A stretch of DNA of 64,000 bases. Origin: a virus. Of the stretch, positions 181-28,970 are shown one piece after another (within the stretch, counting starts at the first letter, position 1; each line of letters opens with the position of its first letter). Where the stretch lies: positions 93,407 to 157,406 of the IMG/VR virus record IMGVR_UViG_3300042922_000982. The stretch is one strand, 5' to 3'. Position numbers and translations under genes: made by a program. The notes below the pieces were generated by a model. It worked only from the letters and a program-made list of their open reading frames with translations. It did not search any database and was not told the DNA's origin.

Positions 181-3100
181 CTACTCCAGATCCGGCTCGG
201 CGTGCCCGGCGGTACGGCCGGGCGCGCGATCGCTGCGTTTCTTGCCCATGAACTGGGCCTTCACGCGAGCGGGAGCCGCCTCGGCACCTTCCACCCGGCC
301 GAAGCGCGCCGCCTGGCGCACCTCGCCTGCCAGCTTCTGCTTGCGGGCAACCGCGATCCCCTTCTTCTCGTCCAGGGTCGAGACCCCGGCCGTGTGCGAG
401 CGGGTGATGACGCGGTGCACGATCGCCTTCGGCACCGAGCCGGTGAGGCGGGCGTGACGCCCGTAGAGCTGCTCCAGGTTGGCCTGGTTGTAGTCGCCGT
501 CCAGGTCGATCAGGTGCGTGCCGCGACCCAGGTTGACACCCGAGGCCGCGATGTTCGAGCTGACGACCAGGATCTTGTGCGCCTCGTTCTCGTTGAAGCT
601 CTTGACCGTATCGTTGCGCGAGGCGCTGATGCGGGTGTCGTGCTTCTCGACAGGCGACGTCTCCTCGTCCTCCGCGCCCGGCTCGGGCGTGAAGTCCTCG
701 TCGGTGCCGCCCGCCTCCTCGTGCGCCGCCTTCAGCTCGTCTTGCGACGCGCGGATGACGCCGTACTTGTAGCCCAGGCGATCGGCATCGGCGCCGCCCG
801 CCATCTTCTGCACGTCGGCATGGGCCCGCTTGAGGCGTTCGTACGTGTTGGACGTCTCGGGGAAGGTGCTGAGGCGATCGCGGGTGTCCGCGTGCGCCCG
901 CGCCACCGCCTTGAGGTTGCGGTGCTCGACCTCCTCCTCGTGCGTCAGACCGCCCGCCGCCGCCTTGGCGGACAGGTGGTTGTGGCGCTCGTAGGCGTGC
1001 TTCGTGTTGTCGTGGGTGTCTTGCAGGCTGGCCTTGAGGGCCTGGTGCTTGGTCGCCTCTTCGTGCATCTGGCGCTCGATCGGCTCCAGGCTGCTCTCGA
1101 GGTGGCGCTTGGCGTTGGCGCCCGAGTACTCGCCCATCACGCGCTTGGCCACCCCTTCGAGGTGGTTCTGGCCGTTGACGCGCTTGGAGGCGAGGATGAT
1201 CTTGGCGTGGGGGTCGTTGCGCATGATCTCGCGCACCTTGTCCTCCACGGCCTTGATCTTGTGAGCGTGAAGCTCCTCCTCCGAGTGGGCGATCGCCGCC
1301 AGGGCGCCCTTGCCGATCTTGCCGTCCTTGCCGCCGCCCTCGATCGCGCTCATGGCGCCAGAGCTGTGAAGCTCCTCGTGGTGGCGTTGGATCATGGCGT
1401 CGTGCTCGGGGCCGAGATCGACGTGCATGTCCTGCAACTGGGCCGACGGGGGACGCATCTCGGCGTCGAGGTCCTCGTTGGTGGAGGTCACCATGTAGCG
1501 GCTGAGCTTGTTACCCAGCTCGGCCTTCTTCTCCTCGTTGATGCCGATCAGGTGGCCGGTCGACTCGTCCTTGATGCCGTAGTTCTTGATGAACTGCTTC
1601 TCGGTGCCGAGATCGTGCTGGCCACGGTGCGTCATGTTGACGAGGTTGAGCTGCTCGCCCAGGTGGTTCTGGATCGGCGTGCCCGTGAGCGCCATGACGC
1701 CCTTGGCCCGGCCGTGCTGCGACGCCTTCAAGCCCGCGTCCTCGTGGTCGAGGCCGTGGATGTAGGCGTCCACCACCCGGCGCTGGCCGCCCTGCGTGCC
1801 CGCGCGGTTGAGCGTGTGCGCCTCGTCGACGATCACGCCGTCGAAGCCCTGCTCTTTCAGGTGCTGGGCGATCGGCTTGCCGCCCACCTTCTTGTTGCCG
1901 TGCACCGGGGCGCCGTCCTCGCCGAACAGCTCGTGCGCCTTGATGTTGTGCTCCGCCTCCAGGGCCGCCTGGACCTCGGGCCGGTGCAGATCATCGTGCG
2001 TGAGCCCCTTGTCGCGCATCACGTCCGCGAGCTTGACCGCCCCGATGCGGGTGGCCTTGTTCGCGAGCATGGAGCGCGTGACGACGTGGTACTTCGCGTT
2101 CGGGCTGATGTCCTTGCCGAACGAGATCTCGCCGCCCTCGTGGTGATCACCGGCGCCGGGCAGGTGCGGCTTCATGCCGAAGAAGGCCGCCGCGTCGTCT
2201 TTCCAGGCTTTCGCCTGGGTGGTGGAGGGCACCACGACCAGGTGCTTCTGCGCCGCGTCCGGGTTCTTCACCTTGGCAAGCTCGGCCGCCGCGAGCGCGG
2301 AGCTGGTCTTGCCGTTGCCGACGCCGAGCGCGCTGATGGTGCGCTGCCCGCCGTTGACGTAGTGGTGAATCATCTTCTGCTGGTGCTTGGTGAACCCGAT
2401 CTGACGGCCGTTGGTGTCGCCGTTGATGTGGCTCAACAGGCCAGGGATCGCCGTGGTCGCCTTGCCCTCGGGGCCGTAGACGTGAGAGCCCAGCTCGTCG
2501 AAGCCGTTGATCTGGTCGGCTGCGAGGGCCGCTTTTTGGCGGACCTGCTGCAAGCGCGGCAGGATGTCGCCGCGCAGCTTGACGCCGCCGAGCAGGTGCG
2601 TGATGCGGTCGACCGCCTCCATGGGCACGACCAGCCCGCGCTTGCCGCCCTTGGCGTTGGCCAGCTGGCCGTAGCCTTCCTCTTTCAGCATGCCGAGCAC
2701 CTGGGCGATCGCGTGCGCCTTGCGGATCGCCTGCGATTGCTCGGTGGTGGTGCCGAGGTTGGCGTCTTCCAGCCCGCCGAGGCCGTGCTTCTCGCCCAGC
2801 TCCTTGATGATGGCCTGCTCTTGCGCCTGGGTGGGCGTGCCCTTCCAGAACATCTTGTGCTTGACCATCGCGTTGGCCAGCTCGATCAGCTTGCCCTCGG
2901 GATCGGTGGGGTCCGACGGCAGGCTCAGAATGGCGCGCGGCTCGGGCGCGTCGATCTCGGGCAGGCCGTCCTTGACGCGCTGCTTGTTCGCCTTCAGGCG
3001 CGCCTTGCGCTCGTCGGCGGACTCGGGCTGCTCCATCTGGATGGTGGGCACGTCGGCGTGGGCCTTGCGGTCCGCGTCGGCGAGCTTGGCGTCGACGATC

Positions 3101-6100
3101 GCCTTCTCCTCGGGCGTGTGGGCCTCGAAGTAGGCGTGGGCCTTCTCGCGGCTCCAGTTGCCCAGGGCGGTCATCTTGTCCTGCTTGGCGTCGTAGCCCG
3201 CGAAGAGCTGCTTGCCGTTGTGCTCCACCGGCCCCTGGTGCTGGGCCAGGCCGCCGGTCTCGCCGATGATCTCGTGCAGGCGCTTGCCCGCCAGGTTGCC
3301 CTGGGTGATCACGGGCGACCCCTTGTGGTCGTACGTGACATGCATGAGCCAGTGGCTGTTGCCGTTGGAGAGGTGCACCACCGAGCTGGTGCCCGCCAGC
3401 GCGCGCAGCTTGCGGTTGAGGTCGTCGGCGGTGTGGATCACGGTGTCGCCGAGCAAGCCGCCCCAGTACTGATCCTTCACGCGGCCGTCGGCGCCGATGT
3501 GAATGTCGATGTCGTGGCCGTCGTGCGTGCGCGCGGTGAACGTGCGCGTGCCGTCGTCTTGCTGGGCGCCTTCCTTGAAGTCGACCGGGGCGTCCTCTGC
3601 CGCCGCCTTCGCCTTCTCGCCCTTGGTGGCCGTCTTGCGCACCTTGCCGTCGGCGACGGTGCGCTTGTGGCCCGCGATCTGCTTGGCGACGTGCTCGCTC
3701 AGGTCGTTGCCCGAGCTGTTCTGAATGGCCGCGTCGAGCTCCTTGTTGAAGTCGACCGCCAGGTTCTTGTTGTCGAGCCCCAGGTGGCGGTACAGCGCGG
3801 CGGCCGGGATGGTCCCGTCCTTCTTGCTGCCGGGCACCTGCGTCCCGTGCTCCGTCTCCGCGAACAGCTCGGTCTTGTGACCCTTCTTGCTCTTGGCGTC
3901 GTAGCTCTGGCGGACGTGAACGTGGACCGTCTTGCCCTCGTGCTGGATGGTGAACTTGTGCTCTTTCGCCGCCTTCTCGTCATCCGCGTGGCTGTGATCG
4001 CCGAAGTCGCCGCCGCCCGACAGGTGCGCGTGAAGCTCGGAGATGTGCTTGCCCACGAAGGCCGAGGGACCGGCGGCAATCTGGCCGCCCTTGGTGATGT
4101 ACACGGCGCGCCCGTGCATGGTGATCCAGCGCCCGCCGGGGTACTTCGAGAGCATCTCGGCGCCGATCCCCTTGAGGATCAGGTCGTCGAAGGGCTCGTC
4201 AACGCCCGCGACCAGCGCGTCGGCCACCCGGTAGGTCAGGCTGCCGGTGTAGCTCTTGGCGATCGCCTCGTCCACCTGGGACAGAGAACCCGGCCCGGCA
4301 AACGCCGCCATCTGGAAGATGAGGCCGTTGGCGCGGTCGACCACGGTCCAGACGCGATCGTCGCCGCCCAGGCTCTTGACCAGGCCGGTGTCGGCCAGCC
4401 ACATCTTCACCGTGCGCTGCGGCTCGGCGTCGAGGGGCCGATCCTCGAACACGAAGGCCATCAAGCGGCCCTCGGCGGTGTAGGGCATCAGCCCCTTGGT
4501 CAGCTCGGTGCCGTGGAAGTCCTGGAGGTCGCCCGCCAGCTGGAGGTGCTGCTTGGCGTTCATGAGCATCTTGCGGCCGGTGCCGGGGTGGTAGCCCAGG
4601 CGCTCGAACACGTCCGACACCGCGATCCAGCTCTTCTTGCCGCCCACCACGTCCTTGGTGGACTTGGGGGTGGTCAGCATGGCCATGTAGTCGCCCTTCC
4701 ACTTGAGGAGGTTGAGCGCCAGCTGGTACTTCTGGCCGTTCGGGTTGACCTTCGAGGGCTTGACGCCGCCGTTGACCAGCATGCGATTGACGATCATGTG
4801 ATCGTTAATGGCCACGGGCTCGCGATCGGCGGCTTGCAGGAGCGCCTTGTACTCCTTGCCCTTGCGCTGATCCTTGGGCACCTTGCGCACCGCGCTCTTG
4901 GCCGCCTGGATCTCGGCGTTCTGCGCGTTCAGGTCGTCCTTGGCGCGCTTGAGGCCCTCGGCCATGGCCGGAACGTGCTCGTGCTTGAGCATGTCCTTGA
5001 GCGCCTTGCCGCCGTCCTCGAGGCCCGCCGACACGACCACGGCGTAGCGCGCGCGGGGGTCGGGAATTTGCGCGATCGCCGCGCCCATGAGGGCCTGCAA
5101 CCGCTCCGAGTGATCGGCTTGCGCCACCTGGGCGAGCGGGTCGACGCCCTTGCCCTCGACCAGATCGCCGAGCGTGCCCGCTTGATCATCGTCGCCCGCC
5201 GGGGCGTCGAGGTGGGCGGCCACGACCTCGTGGGCCAGGCGCGACAGGCGCTTGACCTCGGCCGTTTCGACCTGCATGGCGTGAGCCAGCTCGGTGTCGG
5301 TGGCCGGGCGGCCAAGCTCCGTCTCCAGGGCGCCGCGCACGCGGCTCATCTGGGTCAGGCTGGTGTTGTCGGCCTGCGACACGCGAATGGGGCTGACGCC
5401 CATGATGTCGCGCCACTTGCGGCTCAACTCCTGATCGACGGTGCCCGCCACCTGATCGTGCAGGCTGGTGATGCGCTCGGTGGGGTCGTGGCGACCGATC
5501 ACCTGCCACGCGCTCATGCGGGCGTGCTGCGCCATGTCGGCGAAGAACGAATTGCTCGCCGGGCGGCCCTTCTCGTCGACGGAGGCCGTCATGCCGAGCT
5601 TGCGCATCCAGTTACCGGCGATCGCCACGATCTTCGGCTCCATGTTGCGCAGGGTCGCTTCTTTCACCCGGCGCTCCAGCTCCGGGGTGTAGTCCTTGTA
5701 GCCCTTGAGCTTCTCGCGGATCCGCTGCTTCGCCTCGTCGCCGTCGGCGAGGAAGAGCTGGCCTTCGAGCTTCTTCTTCTCGGCGAACTTGCCGAGGTGC
5801 TCCTCGAACACCGCCTGCTTCTGCACGCGGGCCGCCGCGCCCTCGGCGCTGTCCTTCTTGAGGCCCGGAATGTCGAACAGGGGGGCGGGCTTGCCGAGCG
5901 TCACCTTGGCCGGGGCCGCCGCCGTGTTCACCTTCGCGCGCACGTCGGGCTCGGCCCAGGCAAGCGAGCCCTGCGGGCCCACGCCGGGGAGCGTCTTGGG
6001 GGTCTTGGGCTTGGCGGCGGCCTTCGTCGCCTTCGTTTTCTTGCCGCCCGCCTCGCCGTGGGTGCCCACGGTCAGGACCGGCTGCTTGGCGTGCGCCTTG

Positions 6101-6567
6101 ACCTTGCCGCCCACATGGACGCCGGTCTTGCCCGCCTTGGCGGCAGCCTTGGTGGCCGGGGCGATCGCCGCCGCCTTCTTGGGCGATTGCGCCTTGAGGG
6201 CCGTGCTGGCCTTGCCCGTGGTGGGCTTGGTCGGCGCCTTGGCGACGGCCTTGGCCTTCACCTTGGCCTTCGGCGCGGCCACGGTGGCCGCCTTGCCCGC
6301 CTTCTTCGCGGGCTGGGCGCCCACGGGCTTGGCCTTGGGCACCGCCGCGCTGGCCTTGCCCTTGGTGCCCTTGACGGCCGCCTTGGTGGCCTTGGGGGCC
6401 GCGCCCGCTTTCGCGTCCTTCTTCTTGAGCTTCGCTTCCTCCAGAAGCTTGGCCGCGAGCGCGCTCACGACCTTTTTCTTGTTGACGTTGCGGGTGGTCT
6501 CGCGCACCTGGTAGACCGTGCCCGTTTTGGTGTGGCTCTGGTGAGCCTTCACCCTTTCGGTACTCAT
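181..6567 (-). CDS. giant virion-type protein: N-terminal tag, sigma-70-like segment, SNF2/DEAH helicase
   Basis: 2128 residues. The start ATG at 6567 lies 9 nt after AGGAGG. Residues 6-42 are a tag (VKAHQSHTKTG...VNKKKV) shared with the next two genes upstream. Residues about 45-230 are low-complexity Ala/Lys/Pro. Residues about 405-510 read like sigma-70 region 3 running into region 4: ELGRPATDTELAHAM, then GDDDQAGTLGDLVEG, then a region-4-like helix. The SF2 helicase lies in the C-terminal third: Walker A GVGNGKTSS near 1416, DEAH (VIVDEAHTLNRAG) near 1580, motif III LTGTPIQN, and motif VI QLYGRHARLTG near 2034. SNF2-family ATPases translocate on duplex DNA. Gene position and tag suggest an ejected virion protein, similar in logic to P1 DarB, but that is inference. 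Confidence 0.85.
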   Translation of the reverse strand: MSTERVKAHQSHTKTGTVYQVRETTRNVNKKKVVSALAAKLLEEAKLKKKDAKAGAAPKATKAAVKGTKGKASAAVPKAKPVGAQPAKKAGKAATVAAPKAKVKAKAVAKAPTKPTTGKASTALKAQSPKKAAAIAPATKAAAKAGKTGVHVGGKVKAHAKQPVLTVGTHGEAGGKKTKATKAAAKPKTPKTLPGVGPQGSLAWAEPDVRAKVNTAAAPAKVTLGKPAPLFDIPGLKKDSAEGAAARVQKQAVFEEHLGKFAEKKKLEGQLFLADGDEAKQRIREKLKGYKDYTPELERRVKEATLRNMEPKIVAIAGNWMRKLGMTASVDEKGRPASNSFFADMAQHARMSAWQVIGRHDPTERITSLHDQVAGTVDQELSRKWRDIMGVSPIRVSQADNTSLTQMSRVRGALETELGRPATDTELAHAMQVETAEVKRLSRLAHEVVAAHLDAPAGDDDQAGTLGDLVEGKGVDPLAQVAQADHSERLQALMGAAIAQIPDPRARYAVVVSAGLEDGGKALKDMLKHEHVPAMAEGLKRAKDDLNAQNAEIQAAKSAVRKVPKDQRKGKEYKALLQAADREPVAINDHMIVNRMLVNGGVKPSKVNPNGQKYQLALNLLKWKGDYMAMLTTPKSTKDVVGGKKSWIAVSDVFERLGYHPGTGRKMLMNAKQHLQLAGDLQDFHGTELTKGLMPYTAEGRLMAFVFEDRPLDAEPQRTVKMWLADTGLVKSLGGDDRVWTVVDRANGLIFQMAAFAGPGSLSQVDEAIAKSYTGSLTYRVADALVAGVDEPFDDLILKGIGAEMLSKYPGGRWITMHGRAVYITKGGQIAAGPSAFVGKHISELHAHLSGGGDFGDHSHADDEKAAKEHKFTIQHEGKTVHVHVRQSYDAKSKKGHKTELFAETEHGTQVPGSKKDGTIPAAALYRHLGLDNKNLAVDFNKELDAAIQNSSGNDLSEHVAKQIAGHKRTVADGKVRKTATKGEKAKAAAEDAPVDFKEGAQQDDGTRTFTARTHDGHDIDIHIGADGRVKDQYWGGLLGDTVIHTADDLNRKLRALAGTSSVVHLSNGNSHWLMHVTYDHKGSPVITQGNLAGKRLHEIIGETGGLAQHQGPVEHNGKQLFAGYDAKQDKMTALGNWSREKAHAYFEAHTPEEKAIVDAKLADADRKAHADVPTIQMEQPESADERKARLKANKQRVKDGLPEIDAPEPRAILSLPSDPTDPEGKLIELANAMVKHKMFWKGTPTQAQEQAIIKELGEKHGLGGLEDANLGTTTEQSQAIRKAHAIAQVLGMLKEEGYGQLANAKGGKRGLVVPMEAVDRITHLLGGVKLRGDILPRLQQVRQKAALAADQINGFDELGSHVYGPEGKATTAIPGLLSHINGDTNGRQIGFTKHQQKMIHHYVNGGQRTISALGVGNGKTSSALAAAELAKVKNPDAAQKHLVVVPSTTQAKAWKDDAAAFFGMKPHLPGAGDHHEGGEISFGKDISPNAKYHVVTRSMLANKATRIGAVKLADVMRDKGLTHDDLHRPEVQAALEAEHNIKAHELFGEDGAPVHGNKKVGGKPIAQHLKEQGFDGVIVDEAHTLNRAGTQGGQRRVVDAYIHGLDHEDAGLKASQHGRAKGVMALTGTPIQNHLGEQLNLVNMTHRGQHDLGTEKQFIKNYGIKDESTGHLIGINEEKKAELGNKLSRYMVTSTNEDLDAEMRPPSAQLQDMHVDLGPEHDAMIQRHHEELHSSGAMSAIEGGGKDGKIGKGALAAIAHSEEELHAHKIKAVEDKVREIMRNDPHAKIILASKRVNGQNHLEGVAKRVMGEYSGANAKRHLESSLEPIERQMHEEATKHQALKASLQDTHDNTKHAYERHNHLSAKAAAGGLTHEEEVEHRNLKAVARAHADTRDRLSTFPETSNTYERLKRAHADVQKMAGGADADRLGYKYGVIRASQDELKAAHEEAGGTDEDFTPEPGAEDEETSPVEKHDTRISASRNDTVKSFNENEAHKILVVSSNIAASGVNLGRGTHLIDLDGDYNQANLEQLYGRHARLTGSVPKAIVHRVITRSHTAGVSTLDEKKGIAVARKQKLAGEVRQAARFGRVEGAEAAPARVKAQFMGKKRSDRAPGRTAGHAEPDLE

Positions 6568-6658
6568 ACGCTCCATCCTCCTATTGGCATGGGATTGGCG
6601 TTCCGAGCGTAGCACGGGCAAGCAGCCGAAAAGGCACCATTTGACACCTTAGACGCAA

Positions 6659-6699
6659 TTATCCCCGAGGTGGGCCTGTTGGGCCTTCCTCGGGGATAA
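6659..6699 (-). terminator. strong hairpin, probable intrinsic terminator
   Basis: A perfect 12-bp inverted repeat (TTATCCCCGAGG pairing with CCTCGGGGATAA) encloses a 17-nt loop. On the minus strand it lies downstream of the tRNA-like element and upstream of the giant gene, and is followed by the weakly T-rich AATTGCG. It could separate a short stable-RNA transcript from the giant gene. Confidence 0.6.
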
Positions 6700-6722
6700 C
6701 TGCGGACTCCCGCCATGGGAGA

Positions 6723-6873
6723 TGGCGCCGTGGCAGGAATCGAACCTGCGATCTGAGGCTTCTCTGTTCCCGGCCGCCTGGGGGAGGTACTCCCGAACCG
6801 GGCGATATGGCCCCTCTCTCTACCTGGGTCGGGGTCTTGCAGGCACCCCTTCCGCCTGATGGTCATCACGGCG
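6723..6873 (-). tRNA. tRNA-like element with encoded CCA, anomalous length
   Basis: Read on the minus strand, the 3' end is canonical: a T-arm with 5-bp stem and TTCGATT loop (GCAGG...CCTGC), a 3' acceptor strand CACGGCG, then CCA. The exact 7-bp complement CGCCGTG occurs at 6873-6867, giving a closed molecule of 151 nt, much longer than a normal tRNA. I see no convincing D-arm. An anticodon-like stem-loop with GGGT/ACCC flanks exists near the 5' end, but no anticodon can be assigned. It may be a tRNA with an insertion, a tRNA-like RNA, or a captured host tRNA 3' end (att-like). Confidence 0.4.
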
Positions 6874-6878
6874 GGACC

Positions 6879-6884
6879 AGTATA
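6879..6884 (-). promoter_or_regulatory. -10-like TATACT upstream of the tRNA-like element
   Basis: The minus strand reads GGGTATACTGGTCCCG just before the tRNA-like element. A near-identical GGGTATACTGGACCCG occurs at 14315-14320. No -35 is recognisable 17 bp upstream. A phage -10-only promoter is suggested by the repetition. Confidence 0.4.
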
Positions 6885-6887
6885 CCC

Positions 6888-7256
6888 TCATGCGTAATCG
6901 ATCGCCACCACGCGATCGCCCCAGCGGCCCACGTTGCTGTCGTCGAGGTCCTCGGTGAGCCCCGCGAACATGGCCGGGCACCATACCCATCCCTCCGGCA
7001 GCGGCTCGGCGCGGGCCATCACGTTGAGCCACCCGCCGGGGGACGCCCAGAGGGTCGGGCACAGCCGGAAGTGCCCCCGGTGCTGGGCCCACACCGACGC
7101 CTCGTTCATGTTGGACAAGAGCCCCCACAGGAACGCGTACCACCCGGCCGTCACGATGGGCACCTTCACCACCACGCCCCCGATCAAGAGGGCATGGCGG
7201 GTGGCGCCGGTGGCGATCGCCAACCGGCCGGGCAAGCGGCGCGCCAGGCCCCTCAC
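6888..7256 (-). CDS. hypothetical protein
   Basis: 122 residues from a GTG that overlaps the upstream stop as GTGA, implying translational coupling. Mid-protein is Trp/aromatic-rich (WGLLSNMNEASVW, LCPTLWASPGGW) and it ends VGRWGDRVVAIDYA. Such an ending resembles phage proteins related to kinase-fold (phosphotransferase-like) families, where a terminal DGRxVAVDYG-type strand occurs, but no catalytic motif is visible. Function unknown. Confidence 0.75.
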   Translation of the reverse strand: MRGLARRLPGRLAIATGATRHALLIGGVVVKVPIVTAGWYAFLWGLLSNMNEASVWAQHRGHFRLCPTLWASPGGWLNVMARAEPLPEGWVWCPAMFAGLTEDLDDSNVGRWGDRVVAIDYA

Positions 7257-9163
7257 CACAGCAGGGGCGCCTCGGTGTCGCGCGGCACGGTAACGACCGC
7301 GTCGCGATCGCCGCGCCAATCGCCCACGCTCTTGGCGAGCCCGCCGCCGTGAATCTCGGCGTAGGTCAGCTGGGTCTCCTTCACCCCCTTGAACTCCTTG
7401 TGCGCCTTCACCTTGGCCGACATGTCGTAGGTGGTGCCCGGCTTGAGGCCGGTCGGCTTGGGGCTGAACCAGGAGGCCAAGTTGCCCTGCTCGTCGGTGA
7501 ACTTGTGCAGGTAGCTGGTGCCCCAGGCGTTGGTGATGGGGCGCGGCTCCTCGAGCAGCTTGAACTTGCCGGTCACGGGCGCGCCCGGCACGCCGATGTG
7601 GCCCGAGCGCTTCGGCGCGTTGACCATGCCGTTGGCGCGGGCGTCTTTCGCCGCCGTATTGGCCGCCTTGATGGCCGTGCGCTCCGCCTGCTCGGGGTCG
7701 ACGGGCGCGGGCCTCGGCGCCGCCGCCTTGAGGGGCCGCCCGGTGCCGACCAGCTTGTGCGCGAGCGCCACGTCGCGCGGCGACGGGTTCTGCTTGACCA
7801 GGTGGAAGCCGTCGTAGTCGAAGCCCGCGTCCATGAGGATGCGCCGCAGCCCCCTGGAGGTCTGCGGGAAGGTCAGATTGACGCCCAGGCCCCGCTTATT
7901 GGGGCCCTCGCCGTGCCGGACGGCGCCGTTGTAGCCGTCGTAGGTGCCGGGCGTGCCCATGTCGGGGCTGACGCCGTGATCGAGCCCGGTCACGCTGTAA
8001 CCCGCGTGATCGACCTGCGAATTGCCGATGATCACATGGCCGAACGGGCCCAGCACGACATGGTGGCCCTGCGTGCCGGGGCCGAGGTAGACGTGGTGGT
8101 CGTCGCCGAGCTTGACCACGTCGCCGGGGCTCAGGGGCGCCTGGGCGCCGTCCTTGCCCGCCTTGTCGTTGGCGATCGCCCCGGTGTGGGTGATGCCGCG
8201 CTGCCTCAACTCGTAGTCGACGTCCGGCGGCAGGGCCGGGCCTGCGGGTGGCTTGCTCATCTTCTTCGGTTCCCCGGGCGTTTTGTCCACCTTCACGGCC
8301 AGCCTTGGCTCGCGTTCGGTGGGCTTGGCGGTCGCCCGCTTCACTTTACCCTCCGCCGGGGCCTTCGCGCCAGATGCCTCGGGCTTGAGCGTGTGCGCCT
8401 TCGGCTTGACGAGCTTGGGCGCCTTGCCGGGCGCGGCGTCCTTCTTGACGGCCGCCTTCGGCGGCGCCTTGTCCGCCTTGACGGTCGCCTTCGGCTCGGG
8501 GGCGGGCTTGGGCGCCTGCTTCTTCACCGTGGCGATCGCCGCCTTGGTGGTCTTGGGCTTGGCGGCGGCCTTGGTCGCCTTGGGGGCCGCGCCCGCCTTC
8601 GCGTCCGGCTTGACCTTCTTGGCGGGGGCCTGCTTCGCCACGGCGGCCTTCGGCTTGGCGGCCGGTTTCACCGGGGTCGCCTTGACGGCGGGCTTCGGGG
8701 CCCTGACGGCGGGCTTGGGGCGGTTGACGCGCAGGTGATCGTGCGCCGCTTTCACCCAGGCCGCCGTGGCCGTGTCGACCGGGTGGGTCGTGTCGTTGGT
8801 GAAGGTGTACTTGTCGCGGGCCGTGGCGATCGCCGCCTTGATGTCGGGGATGGCCATGCCCTGGAAGTGCGCCCGGTGCTCCAGATAGACCTTGTCCGCG
8901 AGCGCCTTGAGCCGGGGGTCGGTCAGCCGATCAATGAAATCGCTGGCCTCCTTGGCCGTGATCGGCGCCGAGGCCGGGGCCGTCGCCGCGCGCGCCTCGA
9001 TAGCCATCTGGCTCGCCATGGCGGCCACCAGCGCCCGCTTGTTGACGTTGGCGGTGTGTGCGCGCACCTGCGCCACCTTGCCGCCCTTGGTGCGGCGCTG
9101 GTGCGCCCGCACGTTGACCAGGGCCTTGTTCAGCCCGTCGATCGCCTGATCCACCTGTCCCAT
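7253..9163 (-). CDS. tagged Ala/Lys-rich probable virion protein
   Basis: 636 residues. The ATG at 9163 follows AGGAGG with a 5-nt gap. Residues 18-54 carry the tag VRAHQRRTKGGKV...VNKRALV, which recurs in the adjacent genes 9192-10817 and 181-6567. Residues about 125-270 are histone-H1-like AKP repeats, probably a flexible DNA-binding or packing linker. The C-terminal third has folded segments (NLTFPQTSRGLRRILMDAGF; AYTDEQG-like region) without a known motif. Gene order after MuF suggests an internal head protein; no enzymatic site is seen. Confidence 0.85.
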   Translation of the reverse strand: MGQVDQAIDGLNKALVNVRAHQRRTKGGKVAQVRAHTANVNKRALVAAMASQMAIEARAATAPASAPITAKEASDFIDRLTDPRLKALADKVYLEHRAHFQGMAIPDIKAAIATARDKYTFTNDTTHPVDTATAAWVKAAHDHLRVNRPKPAVRAPKPAVKATPVKPAAKPKAAVAKQAPAKKVKPDAKAGAAPKATKAAAKPKTTKAAIATVKKQAPKPAPEPKATVKADKAPPKAAVKKDAAPGKAPKLVKPKAHTLKPEASGAKAPAEGKVKRATAKPTEREPRLAVKVDKTPGEPKKMSKPPAGPALPPDVDYELRQRGITHTGAIANDKAGKDGAQAPLSPGDVVKLGDDHHVYLGPGTQGHHVVLGPFGHVIIGNSQVDHAGYSVTGLDHGVSPDMGTPGTYDGYNGAVRHGEGPNKRGLGVNLTFPQTSRGLRRILMDAGFDYDGFHLVKQNPSPRDVALAHKLVGTGRPLKAAAPRPAPVDPEQAERTAIKAANTAAKDARANGMVNAPKRSGHIGVPGAPVTGKFKLLEEPRPITNAWGTSYLHKFTDEQGNLASWFSPKPTGLKPGTTYDMSAKVKAHKEFKGVKETQLTYAEIHGGGLAKSVGDWRGDRDAVVTVPRDTEAPLLW

Positions 9164-9191
9164 GGTGCCCTCCTGCCCCTATGCCCGAGCC

Positions 9192-10817
9192 CTACTGCTC
9201 GTGGCCCTCCTGCGCGCGCTCGTGAAGGATGCTCGTGTACACGTCCGCCGCCGTACCCAGCGCGTGCAGCGGGTTGAGGCCGTGGCCCTTCTTGCCGTGC
9301 CCCTTGCCCTGTTTCTTGCCGTCGGCGTCGTGCGGCCCCTCGGGCAACTCGGGCGCCGTGCCGGGGAGGTCGTCCGCGTGATCGTGCGGATCCGAATCGT
9401 CGGCCACCGGGGGCTCGGCGCTCGCGCCGTCGGCCGCCGGGGCCTCGGCGGGTTCCGGGGCGCCCTCCTGGCCATCCTGGGCGCCCTCCGTGGGGGTGTC
9501 CGGGGCGGGGGTTGTGCCCTTCTTCTTGCCGCCCTGCTGCTCGCCGGTGTTGGCGTCCGTGACCGGCCATTCGCGCGTGGGGCGATCGCCGTCGCCCTCC
9601 GCGTCGGGCGCGGGGGCGCTGGGCGGCTCGGGCTCGGCCACCCCCGGCATGGGGGCCATGCGAGGCGCGTGCGGCGCCGCCGGAATGACCTCGTCGGCCG
9701 GAACCTGGGCCTGATCGGCCTCCGCCGTGGCGCGCTCCTCGTAATTGCCGACCCGCTCGGTGTGGGCGTCCTCGAGGGCCGCGTGCTGCTCGGTGGCGGT
9801 GGTGCCCGCAGGCGCCTTGGGGGGCGCCTTGCCCTCGGCCTTCGCCTTTTGGGCGGCCTTGTCGTGCTCGGCTTGCGCCTGCGTGGCCTCCTTGTCGGCG
9901 GCGGCGGCCAGGTCGGCCTTGGCCTTGACCTCGGCCTCGGTGGGCAGGGTGTTCACGGCCTGGCGAATGTCGGCCCAGGCGGTGTCCCACGCCGGGCCCT
10001 CGTGGCCGTTCGATTCGGTGTGGGCGTTGAAGTGGTGACCGAGGGCGATCGCCTCCTCTTTGGTGCTGGCCTGCATGGCCGCCACCTCGAAGTGGCCGGG
10101 GGTCTTGAGCTTGTCCGCCCCGCCGCGCACGAATCCGGGCACCGACGTGGGCGTCTTGGCCTCGCCGCTGCGCAGGCCGTCCGGGCTGGCCTGGCGCGCC
10201 TTGACCTTCACGCTGGAGCGCACGTCCGACGAGTCCCAGCCGCTCGCGGCCTGGCGGACCGCCTCGTACTGGCCGAGGACGTGGCCGTGCTCCGGGCTGC
10301 CCGGCGGCAGGGCGCGCAGGTGCGCGAGCATCTGGCTGCCCGCCTCGTGGAGGTGGTGCGGCGCGTCCGTGCCCATGGCCTGCTTGGAGGCCGCCTTCGG
10401 CTTGCCCTTGCCCTCGGCGCGCTTGGCGTTGGATGTTTTACCGGCGGCCGGGCCGGGGGCGGGGGCGTCGTGCGCCACCCGCTTGGCGCCGAGCTTGCTC
10501 AGGCGATCGGCGTGCGCGGCGCTGCCCGCGACGTGGAATTGGCCCCGGTGCGCGAAGATGGCCGCGCCGGGGGTCTTATTGGCGTGGGCTACCGCCTTTT
10601 TCTTGGAGGCGAAGGTGGTCACCTCGCCGCCCGCGCGCATCTTGGCGATCGCATCCACCATGGCCGTCTTGTTGACGGTCATCTGGTGCTGCTTGACCTG
10701 GATGACGTGCCCGTCTTTCGCGTGGGACTCGTGCGCCCGAACGTCGGTCATGCCCTTGACCATGTCCTCCAGCGCGGCGAGCGCCGTGTTCAGCTTGCCC
10801 CCGTTCGACGTGCCCAT
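9192..10817 (-). CDS. tagged probable virion protein sharing a domain with the MuF C-terminus
   Basis: 541 residues, starting just after the MuF stop. Residues 26-62 carry the tag VRAHESHAKDGHV...VNKTAMV. Residues about 150-285 (HHLHEAGSQMLAHLRALP through WADIRQAVNTL) align with the last 125 residues of the Nudix-MuF protein, showing duplication of one domain in neighbouring genes. The rest is acidic and Pro/Ala-rich, ending YTSILHERAQEGHEQ. Likely a head-associated or ejected protein; inferred from order and shared domains. Confidence 0.85.
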   Translation of the reverse strand: MGTSNGGKLNTALAALEDMVKGMTDVRAHESHAKDGHVIQVKQHQMTVNKTAMVDAIAKMRAGGEVTTFASKKKAVAHANKTPGAAIFAHRGQFHVAGSAAHADRLSKLGAKRVAHDAPAPGPAAGKTSNAKRAEGKGKPKAASKQAMGTDAPHHLHEAGSQMLAHLRALPPGSPEHGHVLGQYEAVRQAASGWDSSDVRSSVKVKARQASPDGLRSGEAKTPTSVPGFVRGGADKLKTPGHFEVAAMQASTKEEAIALGHHFNAHTESNGHEGPAWDTAWADIRQAVNTLPTEAEVKAKADLAAAADKEATQAQAEHDKAAQKAKAEGKAPPKAPAGTTATEQHAALEDAHTERVGNYEERATAEADQAQVPADEVIPAAPHAPRMAPMPGVAEPEPPSAPAPDAEGDGDRPTREWPVTDANTGEQQGGKKKGTTPAPDTPTEGAQDGQEGAPEPAEAPAADGASAEPPVADDSDPHDHADDLPGTAPELPEGPHDADGKKQGKGHGKKGHGLNPLHALGTAADVYTSILHERAQEGHEQ

Positions 10818-10818
10818 G

Positions 10819-12663
10819 CTACTTGCCCCCCTTCGCGGCCCGGATGGCCGCCTTCAACTCGCTCCACACCCGGTCCCACTCGGGCCCCGTCACCCTGGCA
10901 TGCGCCTTGTAGGACTCCATGTAGTGCGCCAAATCGACAAGCTCGTCGCGATCGCCCGCCATGTGGATGGCCAGCTCGAATTGGCGCGGGCTCTTCAGGT
11001 GCGCCGCGCCCCCCGTGACGAACGCGGGGGCATCCCCGAGCGGATCCGGCTTGGGCGGGGTGCGCCGGGCATGCCAATCGCTCACCGCGCCGCGCAGGGC
11101 CTCGTACTGCTTATGGACGTGCGCGTGGGCCTCGGAGCCGGGCCTTAGCGTGCGCAGGTGAGTGAGCGTCTGCATGGCGGCGGCGTGCAGGTGATCGGGG
11201 TGCTTGAGCCCCACCGCCTGCGGCATGGTCATGCGCGGGGCGTGCGCGGTGCCCTCCTCGAGATCCGCCTCGGCGGGCTTGCCCTTCTTGGCCGGTTTCG
11301 GCTTGGGTTTCGGCTTGGCGATCGCCTTCTCCATGGCCCACAGGGCGCCCTTGGCGATCGCGTCCATGCTCGGCGGCGCGGGCTCGGGCGCGATGGTCGC
11401 GACCAGGGCGGTGAGCGCCCCTAGCTCGTAGGTGTAGGGATTGGCGCCCGGCACGCGGCGCGCGGCCAGGCTCTTGACGATCTTGCCCACGGGTTTGGCC
11501 CTCCAGTTGTCGGGTTCTTTGGCCGCCACCGGGCTGGTGTGCGGGTAGCAGCGGCAGCGGGGATGCAGGGGTAGCAAATTGAGGATCTGGAGCAGGGAGT
11601 ACTTGCGCCCCTCGTGCGGCGCGCAGTGCTTGCAGACCTTGTCGTCGCCCATGGTGCGCAAGTAGACGTATTTATAGCCGTGCGCGCGCAGCACGTCGGC
11701 CACGCCGTGCGCGTAGCCCGCCGCCACCATGCACTCGGCGATCAGCTTGCTGCGGTGCATGCTATAGAGCTTGGAGAGCAGCGTGTCGACGTCGGCGGCC
11801 TCCCCGCGCGCGGCGATCATGGCCAGTTGGGTCTCGGTGGTGGCGCGGATGCGCCGCACGTTGCGCCGGGCGATCGCCTCCAGGCGCTTCTTGGTGGCGC
11901 CCCTGAACCCGCGCGTGCGATCGGGCGGCAGCTTGCCCCCTTTCGCGTCGTTGAGGATGGCGCGCGCGGCCTCGGCGCGGCCGAGCTTGGCGGCGCGCTC
12001 CAGGGCGTGCATGGTGAGGTCCGCGCCCTCCGCGTCGGAGCCCTTGTAGCGCGGCCGGGCCAAGTCCGAGAGCACCGGCCGGGCCTTGGGGTGCCCCTTG
12101 GGGTAGGGGGTGCCGATGGCCTTGGACAGCGTGAGGCCCTTCTCGCTCGCGATCGCCCGGACGTGCGCTTCGAGCCACGGCGCGAAGGCGTCTGCGAGCA
12201 CCCGCTCGACGCGCAGGCGCTCGTCGGTGAGGTCCAGCTCCTGCATGAGCCCGCGCGCCTTCTGCCCGACGAGCGCGCGGATGATCTCGCGGGTGGGCGG
12301 CATCAGCTTGGCCGGTAGCTGATCGGGGTAGACCCAGCGGGCCTCGTCGCTCTCGCGCTCGGCGATGCGGAGGGCGCCCTCGGGGTGGCGCATCAGGAAC
12401 GCCTTACCCACGCCGCCGGGGAAGGTGTAGTCCTGCGAGATGCCGGTATACGTGGCCGTGAGCCCGGTTTCCTCGAGTAGCTCGCGGTGCGCGCCCGCCA
12501 AAAACGACTCGCCGGGCTCCTTGCCGCCGCCGGGCAGGTTCCAGTGATCGCCGAACAACTCCTCGGTGGCGGGGCGGTGAAGCAGCAGCACGCGGCCCTG
12601 CGGGTCGACGACAACCGCGCGGGTGCCGGGCTTGAATTTCCAGGCGTCAGAAGCTTCGGGCAT
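10819..12663 (-). CDS. Nudix hydrolase fused to MuF-type head morphogenesis protein
   Basis: 614 residues. The start ATG at 12663 is chosen over the one at 12669 because GAGG lies 6 nt upstream. Residues 5-150 are a Nudix domain with an intact box near 42-64 (GGGKEPGE, then HRELLEETGL), fitting Gx5Ex7REUxEExGU, which hydrolyses nucleoside diphosphate-X compounds. Residues about 250-375 match MuF minor head proteins and end with the Cys/His cluster VCKHCAPHEG...LHPRCRC. The C-terminal 125 residues are shared with the next gene. MuF proteins sit near the portal and are often ejected, so the Nudix domain may be delivered or act in head assembly. Confidence 0.9.
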   Translation of the reverse strand: MPEASDAWKFKPGTRAVVVDPQGRVLLLHRPATEELFGDHWNLPGGGKEPGESFLAGAHRELLEETGLTATYTGISQDYTFPGGVGKAFLMRHPEGALRIAERESDEARWVYPDQLPAKLMPPTREIIRALVGQKARGLMQELDLTDERLRVERVLADAFAPWLEAHVRAIASEKGLTLSKAIGTPYPKGHPKARPVLSDLARPRYKGSDAEGADLTMHALERAAKLGRAEAARAILNDAKGGKLPPDRTRGFRGATKKRLEAIARRNVRRIRATTETQLAMIAARGEAADVDTLLSKLYSMHRSKLIAECMVAAGYAHGVADVLRAHGYKYVYLRTMGDDKVCKHCAPHEGRKYSLLQILNLLPLHPRCRCYPHTSPVAAKEPDNWRAKPVGKIVKSLAARRVPGANPYTYELGALTALVATIAPEPAPPSMDAIAKGALWAMEKAIAKPKPKPKPAKKGKPAEADLEEGTAHAPRMTMPQAVGLKHPDHLHAAAMQTLTHLRTLRPGSEAHAHVHKQYEALRGAVSDWHARRTPPKPDPLGDAPAFVTGGAAHLKSPRQFELAIHMAGDRDELVDLAHYMESYKAHARVTGPEWDRVWSELKAAIRAAKGGK

Positions 12664-12697
12664 GGGCATCCTCGGGGAAACGGGCGATCGGACCTCC

Positions 12698-12703
12698 ATT
12701 GTA
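12698..12703 (-). promoter_or_regulatory. -10-like TACAAT before the Nudix-MuF gene
   Basis: The minus strand reads GCCGCTACAATGG about 35 nt before the start codon and just after a strong terminator hairpin. The same CGCTACAATG is found at 19380-19385, again between a terminator and a gene, and AGCTACAATG at 46275-46280. No clear -35 is seen. Confidence 0.5.
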
Positions 12704-12725
12704 GCGGCAGATGCGTCCGAAAGGG

Positions 12726-12764
12726 CCGAAACCGCCAGGCCGCTTGTGGGCCTGGCGGTTTCGG
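12726..12764 (-). terminator. 16-bp hairpin terminator
   Basis: A perfect 16-bp stem (CCGAAACCGCCAGGCC and its complement) with a 7-nt loop lies after the stop of the 144-aa gene. On the minus strand it is followed by CCCTTTCGG. It separates the upstream operon from the Nudix-MuF promoter. Confidence 0.75.
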
Positions 12765-12785
12765 GATAACGGGCGATCGCCGCAC

Positions 12786-13220
12786 TTACGCCTGGGCGGG
12801 CGATTCCGGGGCGGGGTCGCCCGCGATAGCGAGCAGGAGCTTGCGGTAGCCGTCGTCCTGGGCGATCGCCAGGTTGTCGCGCTCGCCGCTGCCGGGCTGC
12901 GCCAGCACATGGGACGTGGCGATGGCGAACCCGAGCAGGACGTGCATCCGCTGGGGGAGCGTCTCCGGATTCGGCGGCATCGCGATCGCCTCGTACTCGG
13001 CGGCCAACGCGGCCAGGGCCGGTTTGTCGAGCGCGAGGGTCATCTGCAAGGGCAGGAGCGCCGCCTTGCACTCGGCGACCACCTCCGCTCGGTGCGACGC
13101 CGGGAAGCGGTCCAGGGCGGTGAATAGCGAGCGGTAGCCCGCGCGCAGAGCGTCGAGGGCCGTAGCCATGGCCGCAGCGGCGGCGATCGTGGCCGGATCG
13201 TTGGCGTCAAGCGTCTCCAT
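12786..13220 (-). CDS. hypothetical alpha-helical protein
   Basis: 144 residues. The start overlaps the previous stop as TAATG, so translation is probably coupled to the 332-aa gene. The protein is Ala-rich and predicted helical (AAAAMATALDALRAGYRSL, LQMTLALDKPALAALAAEY) without Cys or catalytic motifs. Its place next to head genes suggests an assembly or virion role; unknown. Confidence 0.75.
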   Translation of the reverse strand: METLDANDPATIAAAAAMATALDALRAGYRSLFTALDRFPASHRAEVVAECKAALLPLQMTLALDKPALAALAAEYEAIAMPPNPETLPQRMHVLLGFAIATSHVLAQPGSGERDNLAIAQDDGYRKLLLAIAGDPAPESPAQA

Positions 13221-15153: not shown

Positions 15154-16809
15154 TTACGCGGGCTCCTCGCTGCCGTCGGGGTTCACCTTGGGCAAGCTGG
15201 GGGGCGCTGCGCCCTGCGGGGCGCCTTGATCGCCCTGGGCGGCCTGCTGGCCACCGGGGGCGCCTTGCTGGGCATCCTGGCCGCCGTCCTGGCCGCCTTG
15301 ATCGCCATCGTCGCCGTTCATCATGCCCTGCGCTTGCAGGTCGGCCTGCTTGTACATCTGCCACGCCTGGAACAGGGTCGGATCCTTGGGGATGTCGCCC
15401 CAGAATTGCTCCTCGGGGACGGCTTTCAGGTCGAATTCGGCGCGCACCTCGTTGACGGTCTTGATGCCCGCCTGCATGAACTTGGTGGCGGTGTCGACCT
15501 TGGTGCTGACCTGATCGGGGTCGAGGCCGGTCCAGGCGAATTCCAGCTCGCCTGAAGGGTCGAGCCGCGACATGATGTCGTCGTTGATGCCCGATTGCAG
15601 GCGGTTGAGCAGGGGGATCAGGCCCTTCGATTGGCTGTGAACGAGCGTGGCCTCGTTGTTGCCCTGGTTGCCGAGCCCGCCCGGCTCGCCCGCGCCCTTG
15701 GCGCCGAAGCCGATCTCCTCGCGATCGCACTGGTAGAGCGCGCAGATGATCGTGATCAAGAAATCGAGCCACTCGTGGAACTCCATGTCCTTGTTGCTGT
15801 TCTTGATGCTCGTCCAGTTGACGCCCTTGCCCTCCTTGAAGGCCATGACCGGCACGCGGTGGCTGTTGCCGACGCCGGAGACCATGGCGTTCCAGTAGCG
15901 CGTGAAGTTCTCAAGCTGCTCGGAGGTGTACTGGCCCATCAGGCTCAAGACGCCCTCGGGGATGTTGCCGTGGGTGAAGTAACGGCTGTTGTAGGTCATG
16001 GAATTCAAGAAGCCGGTCACGGTCTCGATCATGCCCTCGACCTCGCTGAAGCCGTAGCCGTTGGCCGTCAGGTCGGTGCGCGGGTTGCGGATCCAGTAGG
16101 CCAGCTCGCGATCGGTGAAATCGGCGTAGGGCTGGCCGTTGACGATCTGCACGAAGGCGATCTCGTCGGATTCGTCGTGGGGGACGCCGCCGTACCCGGC
16201 GCCGCGCATGCCGACCACCGACGCCATGTTGGCGTTCAAGAATCCGGCGTTGGCGCGGTAGCCGGGCGCGGCGATCTCGATGGTCGCGCCGTCGACCGCG
16301 AACCAATCGAACAGGGCGCCCTTGGCATCGTCGCGAATTTCGATGGCCATGGCGTCCAGGTTGAGCGTGTCGCGGACGATCGCGCGCAGGAACGGATCCA
16401 GGCTGGGCCGCTTGCCCTTCTCGGGGGGCGCCACGCCGCACTTGAGGATGGTCTCCTCGTAGGCGCGCATCAGCTTCTTGGCCGCCGGGCCCGTGCGCTG
16501 ATCGCGGTCCTTCATGCGCACCTCGAAGCCCATGTCGCCTTCGTAGTGCGGGCGGCGGGCGAAGCGGGCCACCTGGTTCTGGCGGGTCAGGATCACCGCG
16601 CCGATCGGCTGGCAGGCGCGGGCCACCTCGCGCAGGGTGTGCAGGCTGAGGCTGTTGGCCTGGCGCGGGCGCGTGCCCATCACCTGCCACATGACGTTGG
16701 TGGGGTCGTAGAGGTGCGCGTGCAGGGGGTTGATCGCGCCCGGCTGGGCCTGCGCCTGCGTCTGCGCCGCCTTGCCGCGTGCCAGCTTGTCCTTGTGCTT
16801 CTTCGCCAT
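15154..16809 (-). CDS. phage portal protein (HK97/phage_portal type)
   Basis: 551 residues. ATG at 16809 with GGAGG 4 nt upstream; an earlier start is disfavoured because it crosses the terminator. Portal hallmarks include ACQPIGAVILTRQNQVARF, a mid-region ELAYWIRNPRTD, the clip-like SRYFTHGNIPEGVLSL, and NKDMEFHEWLDFLITIICALY. The C-terminal 100 residues are Gln/Gly/Asp-rich (DGGQDAQQGAPGGQQ). Portals form the dodecameric head vertex through which DNA is packaged and ejected. TerL is 10 kb upstream and MuF 2.5 kb downstream in transcription order. Confidence 0.93.
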   Translation of the reverse strand: MAKKHKDKLARGKAAQTQAQAQPGAINPLHAHLYDPTNVMWQVMGTRPRQANSLSLHTLREVARACQPIGAVILTRQNQVARFARRPHYEGDMGFEVRMKDRDQRTGPAAKKLMRAYEETILKCGVAPPEKGKRPSLDPFLRAIVRDTLNLDAMAIEIRDDAKGALFDWFAVDGATIEIAAPGYRANAGFLNANMASVVGMRGAGYGGVPHDESDEIAFVQIVNGQPYADFTDRELAYWIRNPRTDLTANGYGFSEVEGMIETVTGFLNSMTYNSRYFTHGNIPEGVLSLMGQYTSEQLENFTRYWNAMVSGVGNSHRVPVMAFKEGKGVNWTSIKNSNKDMEFHEWLDFLITIICALYQCDREEIGFGAKGAGEPGGLGNQGNNEATLVHSQSKGLIPLLNRLQSGINDDIMSRLDPSGELEFAWTGLDPDQVSTKVDTATKFMQAGIKTVNEVRAEFDLKAVPEEQFWGDIPKDPTLFQAWQMYKQADLQAQGMMNGDDGDQGGQDGGQDAQQGAPGGQQAAQGDQGAPQGAAPPSLPKVNPDGSEEPA

Positions 16810-16831
16810 GGGGCCTCCGGTGATCAAAACG

Positions 16832-16871
16832 GCTGGGGGTGGGAATGCCAAGCAAGCACCCCACCCCCAGC
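16832..16871 (-). terminator. hairpin terminator before the portal gene
   Basis: A perfect 12-bp stem (GCTGGGGGTGGG with its complement) and 16-nt loop, followed on the minus strand by CGTTTTGATC. It ends the operon containing the 394-aa protein. No distinct promoter is obvious between it and the portal start only 23 nt away, so partial read-through is likely. Confidence 0.7.
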
Positions 16872-26954: not shown

Positions 26955-28970
26955 CTAGAGCCGGGACTGGATGGGCAAGTCGCACACGGGGCACGGCGCC
27001 ACCTTCTCGGTCGCGTCGATCTCGACGTGCCCCTTGTGGTGGGGGCACCACACGTCGCGGGTGTTCTTGGGGCGATCGTCTTGCGGGTGGCGATCGCCGT
27101 CTTGCACCGAGCCCGCCCCGCGCGGCAGGTCGAAGAACACGGACGCGCCTCCCGAGCGGGTGATCGCCTGGTGCGCGACCACCATGACCGCATCGAGCGC
27201 GTCGTCGGTCTGCACCGGGCCCGCCGTGGGGGCGTGGGCTGCGATCAGGCGCTTCTTTTTGGTGTTGCGGCCCTTGAGGCTCTTGAGCGCGGCCATCATT
27301 TCGCGTTTGAGCAGCATGATCGAGTAGATCGGCCACTTGGTCTCGTCGTCGTCCCAGCCGTCTTTCTCAAGCTCCTTGTCGGCCATGGCCCACAATTCCG
27401 GCGGCGTCTCGGGCAGGGCCAGGCGCTCCTCGAACACCAGCTGCTTGAAGTTGGTGGCCAGCTCGTCGTTGAAGACGTCCGTGAAGGTCGTCTTGATCGC
27501 GTTGATGCCCATGTCCTCGAGGTCCTGGATCATCTGGATGCTGCTGAATTGGTCGAAGGATACCTGCGTCACCGTGACCCGCTTGGCGATCCGCTTGATG
27601 AACGGCAGCAGCTCCTTGGTGTAACCCACCTCGCGGTTGAACGCGCGAATCAGGTCGATCACGACCACGCCCTTGCGGACGTGCCCGACGGCCACCACGA
27701 GGCGATCGCCGCCTTCGGAGGTGTCGACGTGCACCACGCGCTCGTACTTGCGCGCGTCCTTGACGAACGCCTCTTCAAGCTCCCGATCCGAGATGGTGCC
27801 GAGCGGCATGGCCGCCGTGCGCCCGGTCAGGGCGGTGTAGAGCTTGACCATGGCCTCGAATTGGCTCGCCACGTTGGGCAGCAGGTTCTTGGCGCCGGTG
27901 AAGAATTGCGCGCCGTACTCGGTCTCGGCGACGTCGGGGTCCTTGCGGTACTCGGCGGCGTAGTCGTCTTTCGTCTCGCCGGGGATCATCTCCCACGAGG
28001 CCAGCTGCACCACGAGCGCGTTCTCGAACGTGCCCGCGATCGCCTGGCAGTACAACTCGTAGAGCACGCCGTCGGCCTCGGCGGGCGAGGACAGGATCAG
28101 CACGATGCCCTTCCCCTTGGCGCGGGTCTTGACCGCGCTTCGGATGGCGGTGTAGAGCGCGCGATCCGATCGAGGCCCCGACGTCTTCTCGGCGAAGGCG
28201 ATCTCGTCGTGGATGTAAACGACCGTGTCACGGCCACGGCCCGACTTGGAGTTAGACGAGCCCCGCTCCGCCCACAGGTGCTTGCCGAACTTCATCATGC
28301 CTTTGATCGGCGGGCTATACCGGCCGTTGAACCACTTGACGCGCTCGATGAAGCTGACGAACGCATCGAAGAACTCGCCCGCCTGCGCGGCCGAGGTGGC
28401 CACGTTCTGGATGCGCAGCGCCTTCAAGGCGGCCAGGTTGAACAGGGCGTGCGGGTTCGGCTGACTCAGGATGCGGTGGCCCTGGTGCCCGGCCGTGCCT
28501 GCCGCGAAGGTGGTCTTACCGCCGCCACGGCCGATGATCAGCACGATCGTCCGGGGCTCCGAGCTATTGTCGTCCAGGCTCTCGAAGACCTGGGCGTACG
28601 GGTTTTTGCGGCTCTTCAGGTACGCCCAATCGGCCACCTCGTCGTACCAGTAGACGCCCGCGTCGTCCTGCTCGACGCAATGGCCCATGGTGCGCATCAG
28701 CTTCTCGCCGTCGAAGCCCAAGCACATGGTCGCGGCATCGAACGGGTAGCGCGCCAGGCGCGTGTCGAGCGGCCGGTGATTGGCGGCGTTGTCGATCACC
28801 TTGGCGAGCAGCCGCTGGCGCGGGCGCAGGATCATGTGCGCCCAGTCCTCGTGCTCCAGAAACACGTCGAGCGGCACGACCTCACCCGATTGATCTGTGC
28901 CCTCTTCGAGCATCGAGATCATGCGGGTGTAGGCGTCGTCCGCCAGGATGGTCTTGCTCGCCACCGCCAT
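26955..28970 (-). CDS. terminase large subunit (TerL) with C-terminal zinc ribbon
   Basis: 671 residues. ATPase domain: Walker A IIGRGGGKTTFAAG near 145, Walker B VVYIHDEIAFAEK near 255, coupling motif LILSSPAEADG near 295. RNase-H-like nuclease domain: VVHVDTSEGGDRLVVAVGHV, SFDQFSSIQMIQDLEDMG and TDDALDAVMVVAHQA supply the acidic residues. TerL docks on the portal, translocates DNA into the head and cuts concatemers. The last 36 residues (CPHHKGHV...CPVCDLPIQ) are a ribbon not usual in TerL and duplicated in the next gene. Confidence 0.95.
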   Translation of the reverse strand: MAVASKTILADDAYTRMISMLEEGTDQSGEVVPLDVFLEHEDWAHMILRPRQRLLAKVIDNAANHRPLDTRLARYPFDAATMCLGFDGEKLMRTMGHCVEQDDAGVYWYDEVADWAYLKSRKNPYAQVFESLDDNSSEPRTIVLIIGRGGGKTTFAAGTAGHQGHRILSQPNPHALFNLAALKALRIQNVATSAAQAGEFFDAFVSFIERVKWFNGRYSPPIKGMMKFGKHLWAERGSSNSKSGRGRDTVVYIHDEIAFAEKTSGPRSDRALYTAIRSAVKTRAKGKGIVLILSSPAEADGVLYELYCQAIAGTFENALVVQLASWEMIPGETKDDYAAEYRKDPDVAETEYGAQFFTGAKNLLPNVASQFEAMVKLYTALTGRTAAMPLGTISDRELEEAFVKDARKYERVVHVDTSEGGDRLVVAVGHVRKGVVVIDLIRAFNREVGYTKELLPFIKRIAKRVTVTQVSFDQFSSIQMIQDLEDMGINAIKTTFTDVFNDELATNFKQLVFEERLALPETPPELWAMADKELEKDGWDDDETKWPIYSIMLLKREMMAALKSLKGRNTKKKRLIAAHAPTAGPVQTDDALDAVMVVAHQAITRSGGASVFFDLPRGAGSVQDGDRHPQDDRPKNTRDVWCPHHKGHVEIDATEKVAPCPVCDLPIQSRL
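26956..27066 (-). repeat. direct repeat copy B of terminase tail segment
   Basis: The counterpart of 26608-26717, about 350 bp away in the same orientation. It encodes the terminase C-terminal ribbon. Confidence 0.7.

Follow-up and report, generated by a model that had tools for sequence, protein, structure and literature searches.

What role might be served by an N-terminal sequence that is common to three neighboring, otherwise dissimilar virus proteins? The question is raised by the DNA analyzed here, a window of 64,000 nucleotides comprising bases 93,407-157,406 of a 157,406-bp virus record, in which genes on the minus strand are arranged in the order terminase, portal, two small genes, a NUDIX-MuF protein and, lastly, proteins of 541, 636 and 2128 amino acids (proteins 3, 2 and 1, respectively; Table 1). 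A preliminary description of this locus noted an N-terminal element of ~37 residues common to the latter three consecutive proteins, and subsequent analysis bears this out: the invariant columns of the proposed consensus, V-A-H-K-G-V-Q-V-VNK-V, are present in all three copies, and, as was also proposed, the proteins diverge past the tag, with BLAST similarity limited to the first ~60 residues and weak low-complexity matches beyond. The three tagged genes remain consecutive despite a gap of ~630 bp (6.6-7.3 kb) between those encoding proteins 2 and 1. Pairwise, the tags are 48-58% identical over 33 amino acids, with Smith-Waterman scores 11-15 s.d. above those of shuffled sequences (0 of 2000 shuffles equaled the observed score). 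The same codon is used at 9-15 of the 16-19 identical tag residues, such that conservation is at the level of protein and a DNA-level repeat is ruled out. A profile search of the whole 157,406-bp record detected these three copies and no others, beginning at residue 6 of protein 1, residue 18 of protein 2 and residue 26 of protein 3. The explanation favored by our analysis, with a likelihood slightly better than even, is that the element would function as an address tag by which effector proteins are loaded into the virion.

Table 1. Features of the tagged locus, with positions given in the window.
Feature	Position	Strand	Characteristics
Protein 1 (2128 aa, from ATG 6567)	181..6567	-	Tag, basic low-complexity stretch, sigma-70 region-3-like segment, C-terminal SNF2-type helicase
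Tag of protein 1 (residues 1-44)	6436..6567, core 6454-6552	-	VKAHQSHTKTGTVYQVRETTRNVNKKKVV; profile score 37.8 bits
Protein 2 (636 aa)	7253..9163	-	Tag, basic Ala/Lys/Pro-rich middle, C-terminal conserved domain of unknown function
Tag of protein 2 (residues 1-56)	8996..9163, core 9014-9112	-	VRAHQRRTKGGKVAQVRAHTANVNKRALV; AGGAGG upstream of ATG; AlphaFold core pLDDT 89-93
Protein 3 (541 aa)	9192..10817	-	Tag and ~180-aa segment homologous to the C-terminus of the MuF neighbor
Tag of protein 3 (residues 1-64)	10626..10817, core 10644-10742	-	VRAHESHAKDGHVIQVKQHQMTVNKTAMV; ATG one base past the MuF-gene stop
NUDIX and MuF-like minor head protein, untagged	10819..13071 (open frame; start probably near 12.7 kb)	-	NUDIX 5e-19
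Portal protein	15154..16851	-	phrog_12 9e-45
Terminase large subunit	26955..28970	-	phrog_2 1e-15

Within protein 1, the listed start of which (TTG 6621) lies too far upstream and was corrected to an ATG situated behind AGGAGG, Pfam searches detect Sigma70_r3 (8e-9), SNF2 (3.5e-8) and Helicase_C (6.6e-8), and further matches are to phrog_62, a DNA helicase family (4e-27), and RpoD (5e-6). The sigma-70 region-3-like segment corresponds to residues ~400-560, regions 2 and 4 not being clearly recognized, and the sequence suggests that protein 1 joins a sigma-like factor, possibly one carried in the virion, to an SNF2 helicase. Residues 501-605 of protein 2 match phrog_2319 (2.8e-17). The homology between protein 3 and the C-terminal ~180 residues of its MuF-like neighbor amounts to 37% identity (BLASTP, E 2e-26); the neighbor itself is matched by PHROG portal/minor head families (1.8e-7 and 1.6e-6), contains a C..C ... 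HPxCRC motif, and scores 15.4-17.5 bits against Phage_Mu_F (PF04233), under the cut-off of 29.6. No relatives of proteins 1 and 3 were found among the viral contigs searched. Separately, a stretch at ~6722-6765 on the minus strand, in the gap preceding protein 1, is similar to a tRNA in its T-arm and 3' end (GCAGGTTCGATTCCTGC...GCGCCA), neither ARAGORN nor Rfam calling a tRNA in this gap; outside the window, 0.8 kb past its start, there is a call for tRNA-Ala (L002:19146-19234).

Two well-studied phages provide precedent for tags of this kind. The internal proteins Ip1-3 of T4 have only an N-terminal leader in common, which directs their packaging; the window element resembles this T4 leader (Ip1-3, Alt) in that an N-terminal sequence common to otherwise unrelated anti-defense proteins directs them, in T4, into the head (PMC12373910). 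Similarly, in P1 the giant polyvalent helicase DarB bears its signal at the N-terminus, the first 30 residues of which are enough to bring mCherry into the capsid (PMC9024508). The window, too, contains a short N-terminal sequence on unrelated proteins of one phage, and as many as seven copies occur in other records. In contrast to the T4 leader, however, the window element is a predicted folded hairpin that is found internally as well, and while the Dar proteins of P1 have no common consensus tag, that of the window is common to three neighbors. The window tag also appears unrelated in sequence to those of T4 and P1 DarB, and cleavage by the prohead protease after the signal is a T4 trait not established for DarB. 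Together, the presence of one common leader on unrelated effectors and its position in a head-gene operon, a pattern that is seen in the T4 internal proteins and bears a resemblance to P1 DarB, favor virion loading.

The carriers also resemble the polyvalent proteins of phages, the repertoire of which is predicted to be packaged and injected (PMC5512222). Protein 1 combines several unrelated domains, and the tagged genes lie among virion genes, following terminase, portal and MuF on the strand that encodes all of them. The likeness to the proteins described by Iyer et al. (2017) extends to the SNF2, ParB, InPase, ART and LPD1 repertoire, the head-gene context and the predicted injection; the passages of that paper that were consulted mention no short hairpin tag that recurs, and the word sigma-70 is absent from the paper, whereas protein 1 has a sigma-70-like segment.

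The element recurs in other viral records. An initial search led to a phage group in which the genes following the portal open with ...YPLLKSRVKAHQRRTKTGKIVQVREH, a strict DNA pattern identified 17 viral stretches, mostly real, and a looser pattern, most of whose matches belonged to an unrelated family of long viral proteins containing YSRNTKTGKTVRVNMEE, added further tag matches once that family had been removed. At L045, L049, L063 and many other loci returned by the looser pattern, long viral proteins of an unrelated family carry YSRNTKTGKTVRVNMEEMIRDIEKLTGK C-terminally. A 27-column profile built from the window tags and their relatives detects the tag in 23 of 23 further records, usually at one to seven copies each (most two to seven) on otherwise unrelated proteins; as these records were chosen by motif, conclusions can be drawn from copy number and position alone. 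Cultured carriers include Bacteroides phage BS162P1, in which two adjacent tagged genes, with products WAX08793 and WAX08794, lie just upstream of the terminase, portal and capsid genes; carriers in phages of this type are small proteins without known domains. Elsewhere, carriers contain SNF2 helicase with ParB, topoisomerase I, InPase, S-AdoMet lyase, RadC, LPD1, ART-PolyVal and C5 DNA methylase domains, and their multidomain relatives include InPase-methylase and ParB-SNF2 combinations. Two phages with distantly related portals yielded no tag within the stretch examined. Additional features of these phages were observed. Firstly, their topoisomerase/InPase proteins (L010:13372-15165, L028:4451-5155) bear a second N-terminal hairpin-like motif, RPGxRGGQFWVDDxGxIRYG, that may be another tag. 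Secondly, QxxLF-like peptides resembling sliding-clamp-binding motifs (QLALF, QMGMF, QMGLF) lie shortly upstream of three tags in L036. Lastly, the portal frames of two tag-bearing records (G004:C1:60615-61697 and G009:C1:12626-14122) contain one in-frame stop each (TAG and TAA, respectively), reflecting recoding, frameshift or assembly error.

For protein 2, AlphaFold with an alignment of 32 tags predicts two helices (residues 2-12 and 42-55) on either side of a bent beta-hairpin that spans residues 13-41 at a pLDDT of about 90. The same hairpin is predicted, at pLDDT 95-96 and with poorly defined flanks, when the tag is taken from the other phage group, although the two runs used one alignment and are thus not independent. 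The hairpin contains conserved Arg/Lys residues, and the tag segments are strongly basic in two window proteins (pI 10-11.5; 9.3 in the third). These features, together with the many carriers that act on DNA, are what one would expect were the hairpin a nucleic-acid-binding element that tethers its carriers to packaged or newly injected DNA and is not itself a loading signal. We regard such a role as rather unlikely: InPase and ART carriers have no need of a tether, a similar hairpin is also found inside tail-completion proteins, and a fold search of the PDB with the tag model returned nothing significant, DNA-binding hairpins included.

The preliminary description proposed asking whether the element always marks N-termini near MuF or portal genes; of these, only closeness to the portal is supported, and that with moderate strength. 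Tags are typically situated 0-17 kb from the portal gene. Each of the nine larger records that were compared has one or more tags at a distance of 1-16 kb, and eight of them have one within 5.4 kb; this closeness was matched by 69 of 20,000 rigid random shifts, and a combined test of a coarser kind gave p = 0.06, such that the association is best described as moderate. Recognizable MuF proteins are found in few other tag-bearing records (PF04233 gives weak matches in just 2 of 24), and the notion of a MuF-specific tag was consequently dropped. Nor is placement exclusively N-terminal: many copies elsewhere are internal, at the module boundaries of multidomain polyvalent proteins and often 3-50 residues past a domain end, indicating that a free N-terminus is not required. 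Among 19 tags, overlap with an annotated domain was seen once, at the domain edge, whereas 6.2 overlaps would be expected.

Such boundary positions raise the prospect that the hairpin is a modular linker, a spacer spread by the domain shuffling of polyvalent proteins and devoid of any targeting role. In L028, for example, the tag sits between topoisomerase and InPase, an arrangement consistent with a linker, as is the topoisomerase-InPase fusion of L010, in which no tag was detected. This explanation nonetheless appears improbable to us, given that the tag is also N-terminal on small proteins and on those of a single module, in which a linker would have no parts to join, that three separate window genes are each tagged at the front, and that divergent codons imply selection on protein sequence. 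Moreover, InPase has a gene to itself in L095, complete with an N-terminal tag, and lies downstream of the internal tag in the L028 fusion, a pattern suggesting that internal tags were left behind when genes fused. Least probable of all, and in our judgment doubtful, is that the hairpin is a portal/connector docking element, derived from or shared with that of Phage_tail_S/Neck1 (PF05069, phrog_26) and placing carriers at the neck instead of the head interior, since, though the same hairpin sequence occurs in an internal loop of some Phage_tail_S tail-completion proteins, which are connector parts and not head cargo, and one weak match in a BFVD fold search is a 'phage virion morphogenesis protein' (43% identity), only some members of the family have the hairpin, the sequence matches are short and could be convergent, the window proteins have no PF05069 match in Pfam searches, and all fold matches have E > 0.02 (best 0.03, three of the top four coming from one phage, ctByu2).

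Neither of the settings that the preliminary description held to be incompatible with a sorting signal, unrelated cytosolic proteins and the interior of a catalytic domain, was found to harbor the element. The strict pattern produced eight matches in the genomes of 84,980 species, of which one is real: a short phage-like contig, encoding a polyvalent protein, in a metagenome bin. Within the bacterial phylum of that bin, the tag profile detected 1 of 379 genomes, the same bin, and in a second phylum, scanned with no positive control, 0 of 395, both scans being less sensitive to divergent tags. This near-absence from cellular genomes indicates that the tag is essentially a phage element.

Returning to virion loading, the tag would act as a small, folded, basic bent beta-hairpin, followed in the window by a helix, that recruits late-expressed effectors into the assembling head by binding a head component, be it the portal, MuF, scaffold or packaged DNA. 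Carriers would then travel inside the virion and, presumably, be ejected and delivered along with the DNA. Weighing against this reading are the internal copies of the tag, its hairpin in some Phage_tail_S/Neck1 connector proteins, the lack of known domains in the small carriers of Bacteroides-type phages, and the two tagless phages with distantly related portals. As the C-terminus of the MuF protein is homologous to ~180 residues of tagged protein 3, MuF is one candidate reader of the tag in this phage. Internal copies would most likely stem from the fusion of tagged genes, or else mark each unit of a processed polyprotein. A broader proposal, which we advance tentatively, is that the hairpin is a mobile cargo-address domain, folded, present in several unrelated phage lineages, able to be placed at the front of any effector, kept before modules after fusion, and recognized by a conserved head or neck reader.

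The preliminary description also stated that no named tag of this type was known. While the kind is in fact known, from the capsid-targeting sequence of T4 and the N-terminal 30 residues of P1 DarB, this particular sequence appears to be undescribed: Pfam and PHROGs searches returned no family covering the tag, and a literature search for the tag and its letters found no description. What sets it apart from known tags is its predicted folded hairpin, recurrence across phage lineages, internal reiteration and, as far as we know, its sequence; to our knowledge, there is no general loading tag that operates across lineages. In T4, the common leader allowed the injected anti-defense proteins to be listed, while for most polyvalent proteins injection is only predicted. 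If the hairpin is a loading signal, it would offer a sequence-based means of finding effectors that uncultured phages deliver in their virions, would make it possible to test which part of the head receives them, and would supply a short tag with which to place reporter proteins in the virions of laboratory phages. Should it prove to be a mobile address domain, searches for the tag would expose the injected anti-defense proteins of uncultured phages.
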